This document shows positions 21,781 to 58,065 of a DNA stretch of 64,000 bases, in pieces (the stretch's first letter is position 1; every line of letters starts with the position of its first letter). Origin of the DNA: Planctomycetota bacterium (GTDB taxonomy: Bacteria > Planctomycetota > Planctomycetia > Pirellulales > Pirellulaceae). Under the pieces are notes generated by a model. It saw only the letters and a list, made by a program, of their open reading frames with translations. It did no database searches and was not told the origin of the DNA. The DNA lies in assembly GCA_017303505.1 (NCBI GenBank), contig JAFLCP010000014.1:1-64000 (forward strand), given 5' to 3'. Position numbers and translations under genes: made by a program.

Positions 21781-23133
21781 ATGGCGAGAAAATCTTGGCA
21801 CTTAAGCCGACGCACCTTTTTGATGGGCACTGGCGTATCTCTAGGCTTGCCCTGGCTGGATTGCATGAGTGCGGCAGGCGAAACAGTCGCCAAACAAGCG
21901 GGAGTACCACGTCGTATATGCGGCCTTTACTTTGGATTTGGAGTGGCACTTCCTCCAGAGAATCACGAGCATGCGAAATGGCGTTGGTTCCCTACAGGGG
22001 AAGGACGTGATTATCAATTCACAGAAACGCTAAAACCGCTAGCAGGTATTCGAGACAAGGTAACGATTCTGGGTGGCCTGTCGCATCCGAATGGTCGCCG
22101 CATGGGAGCCCACGATACGGCGGACACTTTTCTCACTGGCTCTTTCCTAAACAACAAATTCCTGATCAATACCGTGTCGATGGATCAAGTTGCAGCTCAA
22201 GCACTAGGCGATCAAACTCGCTTCTCATCGCTGGTACTTTCGACCGATGGTGGCGTTGGCGAACCGACGCGATCTAGCACCTTATCCTACAACGACAAGG
22301 GAAGACCAATTCCCGCGTTGCATCAACCGCGTCAAATCTTTGATCGCTTCTTTGGGGCAGGGGACGCAGACACTCTCGCCGAGCGTCGACGCCTAAAGAG
22401 TGCAGGAAGTATGTTAGATCGAGTGCTGGACGATTCGAATTCGCTGCGCAATCGATTGGGGCATCGCGATAAAGAAAAACTCGATGAATACCTCACTGCG
22501 GTTCGACAGATTGAACAAGGTGTGGAACGGTCGCAACATTGGTTGGAAATTCCGCGACCGGAATTACGCGATGAAGATCGCAAGCTGTTGCAACTGGATT
22601 CGGATGATAACGCTCCGCTGCAGTTCATTCGCACGATGTACGATTTGATTTACTTGGCCTTCCGTACCGATTCAACGCGTGTTGCCACTTATCAAATTAC
22701 CAACATGGCGGATTGCTCATCTAAAGCTGCAAAGTTCCCGCAACTGCAAGGGTTCAAAGATACCTTGCATACATTGGCTCATGATTGGGACAAACCAGGT
22801 GGTTCCGAGAGACTAGGTCAATGGGATCGATTCATGGCGGAACAGTTTGCGTACTTTATTGACCGCCTAAATTCCGCTCCAGAGGCTGAGGGAACACTCC
22901 TAGACAACTCCATTATTTTGTATGGCAGCAGCAATAGCGTCACTCATGACAATAACAACTATCCGTTGATCTTGGCTGGTGGTCGTGGGATGGGTTTCCA
23001 GCATGGTCGATATCTACGATTTGGCGCCGAGGTGCCGATGTCGAACCTTTTGCTAACGATGCTAAATCGAGCTGGAATTGAATGCCCATCTTTTGCGGAC
23101 AGCACTGGTGTCTTGTCAGAGCTGGTGAGTTGA
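21781..23133 (+). CDS. DUF1552 family exported protein
   Basis: 450 aa. A twin-arginine signal stands at the N-terminus (SRRTFLMGTGVSLGLPWLD), so the folded protein is exported by Tat. The body has the DUF1552 landmarks: GLYFGFGVALPPE, TILGGLSHPNGRRMGAHDTADTFLTG, SVDQ-type strand SMDQVAAQALG, and near the end ILYGSSNSVTHDNNNYPLILAGG. The C-terminal fold is related to DUF1501/alkaline phosphatase-like proteins. It is the usual partner of DUF1592 proteins; the pair appears to act together outside the cytoplasm. Confidence 0.92.
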   Translation: MARKSWHLSRRTFLMGTGVSLGLPWLDCMSAAGETVAKQAGVPRRICGLYFGFGVALPPENHEHAKWRWFPTGEGRDYQFTETLKPLAGIRDKVTILGGLSHPNGRRMGAHDTADTFLTGSFLNNKFLINTVSMDQVAAQALGDQTRFSSLVLSTDGGVGEPTRSSTLSYNDKGRPIPALHQPRQIFDRFFGAGDADTLAERRRLKSAGSMLDRVLDDSNSLRNRLGHRDKEKLDEYLTAVRQIEQGVERSQHWLEIPRPELRDEDRKLLQLDSDDNAPLQFIRTMYDLIYLAFRTDSTRVATYQITNMADCSSKAAKFPQLQGFKDTLHTLAHDWDKPGGSERLGQWDRFMAEQFAYFIDRLNSAPEAEGTLLDNSIILYGSSNSVTHDNNNYPLILAGGRGMGFQHGRYLRFGAEVPMSNLLLTMLNRAGIECPSFADSTGVLSELVS

Positions 23134-23170
23134 GCCTACTGAATTGAGCTTACTGGGTTGAGGCTACGTA
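23129..23170. repeat. Three tandem 14-bp units across the DUF1552 stop codon
   Basis: GTTGAGCCTACTGA, ATTGAGCTTACTGG and GTTGAGGCTACGTA follow each other directly. The first unit contains the TGA stop of the DUF1552 gene. The rest of the 355-bp gap up to 23488 holds no gene I can support. Confidence 0.5.
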
Positions 23171-55114: not shown

Positions 55115-55825
55115 ATGAGCAGCAACACAGAGACAACACAAACAGTTGAAAATAAAGAAGTTCCACTTGCACCAGCTTGCTTGGTCGTGGTGATTATCTT
55201 CAGCGTGATCATGAGTGTGGTTTGTGCGGGCCTTTCATGGTATCTCAATCAAAACCAAAGCGAGAATGCGGCACGAGCTTTGCGCGAGCAACTTATCCCT
55301 TGGGTTCAACAGTCCGCTCTTGAACCTACGGATAAAGAAGCGATCAGTGCAGAACTCAATCAGTTGGCAGTCCAGATGGATTCCAAGGATCTAAATGAGG
55401 GAGAGCTGCGGCGGCTTAGATTTTGTCTCACGGACAATCCCGTTTTGTTGTGGGGTTTTGTACAAGCTGCCGTGGGTAAGATTGAAAGTTGTTCTGAGCT
55501 TACGGATATTGAGAAAGAGCAAGCACGTTTAACAGCCGATCGCTTGCTTCGATTAGTGGCGGAGCGAAAGCTGACACGTTCAGCATTGGAATTCAGCCTG
55601 CAAACGGTGACTTTGGCACGCAGCGATGGCTCGGGGTTGGTAGTGAAAGATAATCCTACCACCGACGACTTACGGACATTTGTAAAACGAGGGGCGCAGC
55701 AGGCAGATGGTTTGCAAGCTTCAAAAGAGCCGTATGAAAAAAGTCCTGCTCAAGTATTTCACATGATGATTGAATCGGCTTTGGAAGATCCCCAGCCGGC
55801 CAAAGATAGTCCTGCCCAGAAGTAG
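55115..55825 (+). CDS. Single-pass membrane protein, hypothetical
   Basis: 236 aa. One transmembrane helix lies at about residues 22-43 (CLVVVIIFSVIMSVVCAGLSWYL), followed by about 190 helical, charged residues (LRFCLTDNPVLLWGFVQAAVGK, KEQARLTADRLLRLVAERKLT). No family is recognised. A 14-bp direct repeat TTGGATATGAGRCG (55057-55070 and 55073-55086) lies just upstream and contains a small hairpin. Confidence 0.5.
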   Translation: MSSNTETTQTVENKEVPLAPACLVVVIIFSVIMSVVCAGLSWYLNQNQSENAARALREQLIPWVQQSALEPTDKEAISAELNQLAVQMDSKDLNEGELRRLRFCLTDNPVLLWGFVQAAVGKIESCSELTDIEKEQARLTADRLLRLVAERKLTRSALEFSLQTVTLARSDGSGLVVKDNPTTDDLRTFVKRGAQQADGLQASKEPYEKSPAQVFHMMIESALEDPQPAKDSPAQK

Positions 55826-56202: not shown

Positions 56203-56771
56203 ATAGCATCCTCAAGCCGAACGCCAACAACGTGCCTGGCACCAAATTTTCCACGCGGTTTGCTAGCATTCAACGACAAAATCAGCGTGCCTGGCACCAT
56301 TTTCGGGCGCACGGCCCAATGCTAGCAAACCTACTCCGTCACTATCCTATTTTGCTAGCATTCCCAAGTCGAACGCCCGCCACCAAACAACTGGGTGCCT
56401 GGCACCAAATTTCCCACTCGGTTTGCTAGCATTCAACGACAAAATCAGCGTGCCTGGCACCATTTTCGGGCGCACGGCCCAATGCTAGCAAACCTACTCC
56501 GTCACCATCCTATTTTGCTGGCATTCCCAAGTCGAATGCCCGCCACCAAACAACTGGGTGCCTGGCACCAAATTTTCGACGCGGTTTGCTAGCATTCAAC
56601 GACAAAATCAGCGTGCCTGGCACCATTTTCGGGCGAACGGCCAAATGCTAGCAAACCTACTTCGTTGCCATCTTGTTTTGCTAGCAAGCCCGAGTCCAAC
56701 ACTCGCCGTCAACCAACAGAGTGCCTGGCACCAAATTTTCGACGCTCATTTGCTTGCTTTGTAACGAAGGG
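56203..56771. repeat. Array of nested palindromic repeats, 163-bp period
   Basis: The palindrome GTGCCTGGCAC starts at 56232, 56395, 56558 and 56721 (exactly 163 bp apart) and again 55 bp into each complete unit (56287, 56450, 56613). Each unit is flanked around the inner palindrome by GGTTTGCTAGCATT and its exact inverse AATGCTAGCAAACC (56257-56270 and 56318-56331 in unit 1), with AAAAT/ATTTT inside, so the whole unit can fold into a nested hairpin. A further TTTTGCTAGC lies near the unit end. Units 1 and 2 differ by a few bases; unit 3 is more diverged and unit 4 is cut short. No coding function: the period is not a multiple of three. The gap 55826-56202 has no supported gene. Confidence 0.85.
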
Positions 56772-57653
56772 AAAGGTGTGAAATGCCAAACTGCCGCAAT
56801 ACAACGACTACCATTTGTGACCACCAAATAACAACATGAATGCTAGCAAAGTTTGGGCAAAAGCAACTTTCATCGCCACCATACTACTCAACTGACGTCG
56901 CCATACCCAAAGCAACTGAAGCACGAACAATACCAAAATGGTACCGGCAAATTTACACCCTAAAAAAACTGCGATATGTGGCGTACATCCGGTAAGCGGA
57001 TCATCCAGCCCCATCATGTAGCGCCCAACCGGGTTCAACTCCAGACTCTGCAAAGAATCAACGTACATCACCGTCAAATAACTGTCATACGCAGAAACAA
57101 AAACAACTGGGTGCCTGGCACCAAATTTTCGACGCGGTTTGCTAGCATTCAACGACAAAATCAGCGTGCCTGGCACCATTTTCGGGCGAACGGCCAAATG
57201 CTAGCAAACCTACTTCGTTGCCATCTTGTTTTGCTAGCAAGCCCGAGTCCAACACTCGCCGTCAACCAACAGAGTGCCTGGCACCAAATTTTCGACGCTC
57301 ATTTGCTTGCTTTGTAACGAAGGGAAAGGTGTGAAATGCCAAACTGCCGCAATACAACGACTACCATTTGTGACCACCAAATAACAACATGAATGCTAGC
57401 AAAGTTTGGGCAAAAGCAACTTTCATCGCCACCATACTACTCAACTGACGTCGCCATACCCAAAGCAACTGAAGCACGAACAATACCAAAATGGTACCGG
57501 CAAATTTACACCCTAAAAAAACTGCGATATGTGGCGTACATCCGGTAAGCGGATCATCCAGCCCCATCATGTAGCGCCCAACCGGGTTCAACTCCAGACT
57601 CTGCAAAGAATCAACGTACATCACCGTCAAATAACTGTCATACGCAGAAACAA
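56548..57653. repeat. 553-bp perfect tandem duplication
   Basis: Bases 56548-57100 recur as 57101-57653, offset exactly 553, and I found no difference in the parts compared. The unit holds the third and fourth palindrome units and the 3' half of a membrane-protein gene. Both borders fall in a short CAAA/AAAC stretch (CACCAAACAACTGG and CAGAAACAAAACC), which fits a microhomology-mediated duplication. Palindromes at 57111, 57166 and 57274 are the duplicated ones. Confidence 0.85.
56808..57104 (-). pseudogene. Duplicated 3' fragment of the membrane-protein gene
   Basis: About 98 codons identical to the C-terminal part of the gene at 57361-57846 (from FVSAYDSYLTVMYVDSLQ to the shared stop). It lacks the N-terminal signal and promoter; upstream in frame it reads into the palindrome array (to 57197). 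It is probably not functional and is a by-product of the 553-bp duplication. Confidence 0.75.
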
Positions 57654-57846
57654 AACCAATGAGCAAAGAACAAATCGGCACCGTTAAATGATGTCGAACC
57701 ATTTGACGATAAAGCCGCGCAAACTCAACCAACATGGAACGCTGGCGCTGAAATACCGCAACGGAATTATTGCCGGACACTGCAAATGGTTGCTCTAGCC
57801 CCAGCACTGCACCACCCGAAACCGCCCCAATACGAACCTCGGACAT
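57361..57846 (-). CDS. Membrane protein, hypothetical
   Basis: 161 aa from ATG 57846 with GAGGAG about ten bases upstream; the longer frame to 57993 is less likely. The N-terminal 45 residues are cytoplasmic and basic (RQRSMLVEFARLYRQMVRHH). There are about three helices: LTVPICSLLIGFVSAYDSYL, IAVFLGCKFAGTILVLFVLQ and VAMKVAFAQTLLAFMLLFGG. The middle signature SLELNPVGRYMM resembles DUF5658-like small membrane proteins (weak match). Its 3' half has been duplicated in tandem on the downstream side. Confidence 0.55.
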   Translation of the reverse strand: MSEVRIGAVSGGAVLGLEQPFAVSGNNSVAVFQRQRSMLVEFARLYRQMVRHHLTVPICSLLIGFVSAYDSYLTVMYVDSLQSLELNPVGRYMMGLDDPLTGCTPHIAVFLGCKFAGTILVLFVLQLLWVWRRQLSSMVAMKVAFAQTLLAFMLLFGGHKW

Positions 57847-58065
57847 GATCTTCAATCTCCTCGTAACCAAAACGCATTTTGGGAATCCTCTCTGCCCAGA
57901 GAGTGTCCCATCTGCCCGATCATGACCAACGCAAACCCCATACCTAACCGATAAACAAAACTCGCCCCGCGAGATACACTCGACGTAAACCAAATCCAGG
58001 AAACAACTTACAACCCATCAAGTATCGCATTTTTCCGGACGCACTAGATCGGACTCTCCATCCAA

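Follow-up and report, generated by a model that had tools for sequence, protein, structure and literature searches.

A palindrome array in a Planctomycetota genome: a probable in-place amplification of REP-like elements associated with RAYT-type transposase genes

Introduction

A short intergenic region in the genome of a Planctomycetota bacterium (Pirellulaceae; assembly GCA_017303505.1, contig JAFLCP010000014.1) is densely packed with a palindromic 11-nt core, GTGCCTGGCAC. The region raises the question of whether the array is an entity of its own or the local representative of a dispersed element, and, in the latter case, to which genes the element belongs. A sequence-only reading had described nested palindromes with an exact 163-bp period, and had considered a dispersed palindromic family (REP- or MITE-like), a structured RNA or a DNA-binding array. 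Here we outline the architecture of the array within the window, i.e., the whole 64,000-nucleotide stretch analysed, and trace its core through this and other genomes. The array is most likely a cluster of REP-like elements, which belong to HuH/Y1 transposase genes of the RAYT type and were amplified in place by duplication.

Architecture of the array

Two convergent genes face each other with their 3' ends, and the array fills the gap between them. Pattern search confirms ten copies of GTGCCTGGCAC, all of them exact, within 56232-57284; with up to one mismatch and on both strands, the window holds 20 copies compared with 1.0 expected from shuffles. The features are as follows (position in the window, strand, description and source).

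55115-55825, plus strand: gene of unknown function, 236 aa, convergent with 57361-57993 (ORF list, profile searches)
56232-56745, plus strand: 163-bp tandem array of 3.2 copies, with two GTGCCTGGCAC and two or three GCTAGC-type motifs per unit (TRF, repeat search)
56232-56242, plus strand: REP-like core GTGCCTGGCAC, copy 1 (pattern search)
56287-56297, plus strand: core copy 2 (pattern search)
56395-56405, plus strand: core copy 3 (pattern search)
56450-56460, plus strand: core copy 4 (pattern search)
56558-56568, plus strand: core copy 5 (pattern search)
56613-56623, plus strand: core copy 6 (pattern search)
56721-56731, plus strand: core copy 7 (pattern search)
57111-57121, plus strand: core copy 8, duplicate of copy 5 (pattern and repeat search)
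57166-57176, plus strand: core copy 9, duplicate of copy 6 (pattern and repeat search)
57274-57284, plus strand: core copy 10, duplicate of copy 7 (pattern and repeat search)
56257-56331, plus strand: 75-nt nested unit, consisting of the GGTTTGCTAGCATT arm, the core at 56287-56297 and the AATGCTAGCAAACC arm (inverted repeats I2, I6, I9, I11; DNA fold)
56548-57102, no strand assigned: 553-bp duplication, first copy, one REP unit plus gene tail (repeat search, TRF)
57101-57655, no strand assigned: 553-bp duplication, second copy (repeat search, TRF)
56808-57102, minus strand: truncated duplicate of the 3'-terminal part of gene 57361-57993, brought by the duplication (ORF translations with common C-terminus)
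57361-57993, minus strand: intact gene with its 3' end towards the array, 210 aa as listed (ORF list)

The 55/108-bp rhythm of the cores and the unit length of 163, which is no multiple of three, are present as described. The 163-bp period holds for 56232-56745 (92% matches), but not beyond: the cores at 56721 and 57111 are separated by a step of 390 bp, and the last three cores derive from a 553-bp tandem duplication that is separate from the 163-bp array. The two duplicated stretches are completely identical over 555 nt and overlap at their junction by just 2 nt, in A-rich sequence. Each contains one REP unit and the 3'-terminal part of the minus-strand gene, and the “array” therefore includes a truncated gene copy. 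The duplicate tail lies open within a 129-aa chimeric ORF (56808-57197) that incorporates REP sequence, and the product of the intact gene gives a weak DUF5658-like match (E 0.01, below cut-off).

The nesting of a core within inverted arms is borne out in four units, where the 14-bp arms GGTTTGCTAGCATT and AATGCTAGCAAACC stand 47 nt apart; in addition to the unit listed above, these are found at 56420-56494, 56583-56657 and 57136-57210. Elsewhere in the window, TRF reports three copies of a 14-bp tandem repeat, TGAGTTGAGCCTAC, at 23126-23167.

Dispersal of the core through the genome

The exact core occurs 109 times in the 7.76-Mb genome (49 and 60 copies on the two strands), compared with a single occurrence of the reversed control; these numbers are lower bounds, as several contigs end in RAYT genes or repeats. 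The copies are mostly clustered, and one or more single exact copies lie inside a long ORF (contig C86). Across 87 distinct copies the common context is an A-rich stretch before the core and a T-rich one after it, with a C directly following in 82. A GCTAGC motif is located 20-50 nt from the core on at least one side in 59 of these 87 copies, mostly at about 24 nt. Less than 100 bp from a core, such motifs reach a density of 7.2 per kb, versus 0.57 elsewhere at the same loci. GCTAGC is a second motif, the lineage-specific partner of the core. The perfect nested arms, on the other hand, are peculiar to the array in the window and not kept in other copies, and they were rejected as the mobile unit. 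A comparison of the array with a plasmid collection yielded no match.

The period differs from cluster to cluster: TRF gives 235 bp at C240 and 217 bp at C239, and repeated sub-clusters are spaced by 439 bp at C219 and by 324 bp at C238. The period is therefore a product of local duplication rather than a property of the element, and the 163-bp unit, being a local duplication length, is ruled out as the element. An ordinary tandem repeat without any wider family, in which a chance palindrome was multiplied by replication slippage, would explain the periods of 163 and 553 bp, since both are local duplications. Yet it accounts for the period only: as a full account it is refuted by the genome-wide copies, to which the adjoining RAYT genes and the presence of the core in many phyla (see below) are added, and we regard it as very improbable. 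The sequence-only reading had held that absence of the unit elsewhere, combined with a lack of covariation, would leave just such a local repeat; the motif proved abundant elsewhere in this genome and in others, with GCTAGC as a partner in this one, and the stem was found to covary between genomes.

The copies lack the GT[AG]G foot: GTAG (3) and GTGG (8) occur as scattered matches without a fixed position in the 20-nt flanks, which were inspected for 86 copies. Moreover, neighbouring copies less than 150 bp apart are arranged directly in 41 cases and inverted in 11, which is not the inverted-pair order of REPINs.

RAYT genes beside the motif

On contig C44, a gene coding for a 357-aa protein sits between two motif clusters of opposite orientation. 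In single searches the protein weakly matches the REP-associated tyrosine transposase (RAYT) family NF047646 (E 1.1e-6, score 28.6 against a cut-off of 80) and Pfam Y1_Tnp (9e-4), and a search with Pfam Y1_Tnp alone missed the RAYT of this genome. A profile-profile comparison with canonical RAYTs gives 99.1% and an E value of 1.2e-18, and a profile grown from an Oceanobacillus RAYT recovers the protein at 126 bits. The canonical RAYT profile in turn matches the TnpA-REP structure 4er8 (3.7e-7), NF047646 is matched by 14 of 15 family members, and HuH and Y-x-x-x-NP are conserved. Judged by these profile matches, the 357-aa protein is a predicted HuH/Y1 transposase of the RAYT type.

Nine places in the genome match this RAYT, and at eight of them the motif lies within about 210-480 bp (C44, C227, C17, C263, the end of C46, the start of C230, the end of C179 and the start of C86), at C44 and C263 on both sides. 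No motif is found near the ninth place (C187, 26% identity), nor near the IS200-type Y1 matches at C2, C90 and C113. The contig of the window is itself among the eight, with a RAYT at C46:75733-76078, 18 kb past the array. This locus, beyond the window, and C230:1-346 are closely similar RAYT 5' ends truncated by contig ends. The repeat that flanks the transposase gene is hence the repeat dispersed in the genome, as is characteristic of a REPtron or TIRtron.

The core in other genomes

A protein search of a genome contig collection with the RAYT returned no relative, and a DNA pattern scan for two cores 8-38 nt apart was used instead. At least 119 stretches matched this pattern, and the phyla named among them number at least 14. 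In 25 genomes drawn from it, and thus selected for carrying the motif, the core is present in 5-473 copies each, mostly at least 40, versus 0-8 for the reversed control. Genomes with a high copy number belong to the Planctomycetota, Bacillota, Acidobacteriota, Actinomycetota, Chloroflexota, Cyanobacteriota, Pseudomonadota and others. The constancy of the core between genomes is imposed by the search and constitutes no result; its abundance per genome does.

Among 119 loci listed by the scan, RAYT is the one protein family that is consistently close to the core (0-187 bp in five loci). This proximity bears on the possibility that the repeat is a MITE of a DDE insertion sequence and not a RAYT element. 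The 75-nt unit with its inverted arms around a core has the outline of a MITE, but these arms are not retained in other copies, the family that accompanies the core is RAYT and no insertion sequence with such ends came to notice, which makes a MITE extremely unlikely. A dispersed, REP-like palindromic family, as envisaged from the sequence, is well supported by the genome-wide copies, the adjoining RAYT genes and the core in other genomes.

In the motif-selected genomes the motif is found at 19 of 90 RAYT loci, whereas at most 4.8 are expected from its density. The usual pattern there is one flanked RAYT per genome, often with the motif on both sides at 20-300 bp; examples are Oceanobacillus (L282), Metabacillus (L287), a cyanobacterium (L315), Acidimicrobiales (L343), Planctomycetaceae (L320), Acidobacteriota (L341) and Clostridium (L312). 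One RAYT subfamily of genome G021 has eight members, each accompanied by a motif cluster at a distance of 1.33-1.36 kb from the matched domain; none of the 21 other RAYTs has one within 3.5 kb. In this genome, of another genus of the family, the same core also forms a tandem array with a 128-bp period and unrelated intervening sequence (L153, G021:C1:342656-343762).

The pairing of RAYT and motif across genomes is patchy. Five Planctomycetota genomes chosen by motif count alone comprise three with one flanked RAYT and two without, and 3 of their 17 RAYT loci are flanked versus 0.64 expected. Of 58 RAYT loci that a protein match picked out in relatives from the family, just 2 have the motif, and the motif-rich genomes G119, G120, G146 and G297 show no motif-flanked RAYT among the matches checked. 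The motif itself is also unevenly distributed: 20 or more copies are present in 6 of 199 sampled Planctomycetota genomes, that of the window included.

This distribution has to be weighed against a further explanation, according to which the array binds a host chromosomal protein involved in nucleoid organization or partition and the link to RAYT is incidental. In favour of such an array, exact copies of the core abound despite the divergence of their stems, and host proteins bind the REPs of E. coli. A housekeeping site, however, would not be expected to be confined to so few of the sampled genomes, and the motif is placed close to RAYT genes; we therefore deem a host-protein array unlikely, and retain the RAYT-associated family.

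On a quickly built tree of 155 proteins, whose branches are long, 16 changes are required to explain the flanked state compared with 22.5 when shuffled, and at least 8 are forced by well-supported branches. The flanked state is accordingly neither a single clade nor random. Beside other RAYTs, in a betaproteobacterium, a Bacillus, an Acidimicrobiales MAG and a planctomycete (L281, L325, L352, L374), GGGTCnGACCC palindromes were observed, possibly a second widespread tip; L281, L325 and L352 lie in three of the motif-selected genomes. In genome G024 (L131, L135, L147, L151) the core lies within a longer inverted repeat that starts with GTGGGGCACG and ends with CGTGCCCCAC and looks like a different element.

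Folding and covariation of the stem

The proposal that the units fold into hairpins stands for the 75-nt nested unit, which reaches -19.1 kcal/mol as DNA (z -4.2 against shuffles), a value expected of any 14-bp inverted repeat. It does not stand for the single-motif hairpin, which as single-stranded DNA amounts to -2.2 kcal/mol and is no better than shuffles.

Covariation likewise depends on the level of comparison. Among the genome's own copies none was detected, neither in the core flanks nor in the GCTAGC arms, and both were dropped as conserved stems. Between genomes, in contrast, the outer stem covaries around a constant tip. One copy was drawn per genome from 67 genomes of at least 14 phyla, and the right flanks were dealt out among genomes as a control: 4.19 of 10 positions pair, compared with 2.70 after shuffling. 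None of 1000 shuffles reached the observed pairing, a count that does not equal a probability, as the genomes are related by descent. In register, 0.40 of the positions pair, versus 0.25-0.27 when the flanks are slid by 1-3 nt.

These results also speak to a structured or regulatory RNA, such as a terminator or mRNA-stabilising hairpins serving the two genes. The location of the array between convergent 3' ends would suit this role, and five of the six terminator-like matches in the region are cores read on the minus strand. Yet six such matches are not clearly above the 3.4 expected from shuffles, a search of the array against Rfam gave no match and the copies within the genome do not covary. 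An RNA element, as one of the initial proposals, is thus not supported and appears improbable as the main explanation; a secondary effect of this type is compatible with REP-like elements of a RAYT.

A model for spread and amplification

The element to be explained is, in the proposed model, a short DNA palindrome with the tip GTGCC-T-GGCAC and a variable stem, which in this genome is accompanied by GCTAGC motifs at a distance of about 24 nt. If the RAYT acts as TnpA-REP does, it would recognise the hairpin in its single-stranded form, cleave and rejoin the DNA nearby, and thereby spread copies to intergenic sites. Where several copies come to lie together, slippage or short-homology duplication could multiply the cluster in place, and this multiplication would give rise to periods of 163 and 553 bp here and to other periods elsewhere. 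Dispersal, RAYT association, the same core in other genomes, stem covariation between genomes and local duplication are observed; recognition, cleavage and mobilisation by the RAYT, as well as any benefit to the cell, are inferred. The repeat copies offered no example of an empty site, a target duplication or a strain polymorphism, so that they are no more than putatively mobile.

While the array as such represents the local multiplication of a RAYT-associated repeat family, a high-copy 11-nt core that spans phyla and often lies beside RAYTs is less ordinary. The importance of the locus resides in this family, as the same core is found beside RAYT types that a survey reported without REPs (PMC6006769). 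We tentatively consider, as a possibility somewhat less likely than not, that a single pan-bacterial hairpin family has GTGCC-T-GGCAC as its invariant tip; its stem would be rebuilt per genome and the tip used by RAYTs of several deep lineages, contrary to the rule of one repeat per RAYT. If one tip does serve many RAYT lineages, recognition may depend on a conserved tip and not on a tag, and such repeats would have been overlooked because searches required the GTAG foot.

Comparison with known systems

REP/BIME systems and their RAYTs (TnpA-REP), e.g., the GTAG REPs of E. coli (PMC2817692, PMC6006769), resemble the present family in their dispersed, high-copy short palindromes and mosaic clusters, and in repeats flanking the gene of a HuH/Y1 single-strand transposase with Y-x-x-x-NP. 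The present family differs from them in that it lacks the GT[AG]G foot and its neighbours are mostly direct, not inverted; it is therefore not filed as a classical REP. In a bacterial-repeat context, GTGCCTGGCAC is not printed in the literature searched, which comprised the texts of openly accessible articles.

With regard to the transposases, the 357-aa protein shares WE, Y[IV]DLNP and a long insert between HuH and tryptophan with TnpA-Y1 subclass 2.3 (Quentin et al. 2018, PMC6006769), and many flanked proteins from Bacillota and other phyla resemble subclass 2.1 (NH[YF]H, Y[IV]HLNP); both assignments are by motif only and not by the profiles of that study. No REP-like sequences were found there beside genes of subclass 2.1 or 2.3 (PMC6006769), whereas palindromes do flank 2.1- and 2.3-like genes here, and by motif it is these two subclasses to which the majority of flanked proteins are similar; this is the main departure from the earlier work.

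A further likeness is to TIRtrons and their TIRYTs, RAYT-like genes between non-GTAG inverted repeats (Di Nocera et al. 2013, PMC3733652). According to the text of that article, some TIRtron repeats are self-complementary and occur in moderately repeated families as dimers or clusters. Its printed consensus is GGGGWSAS, which GGGTCnGACCC, found beside other RAYTs in some genomes here, resembles; GTGCC repeats are not named in the text. The present family fits the looser TIRtron description given there.
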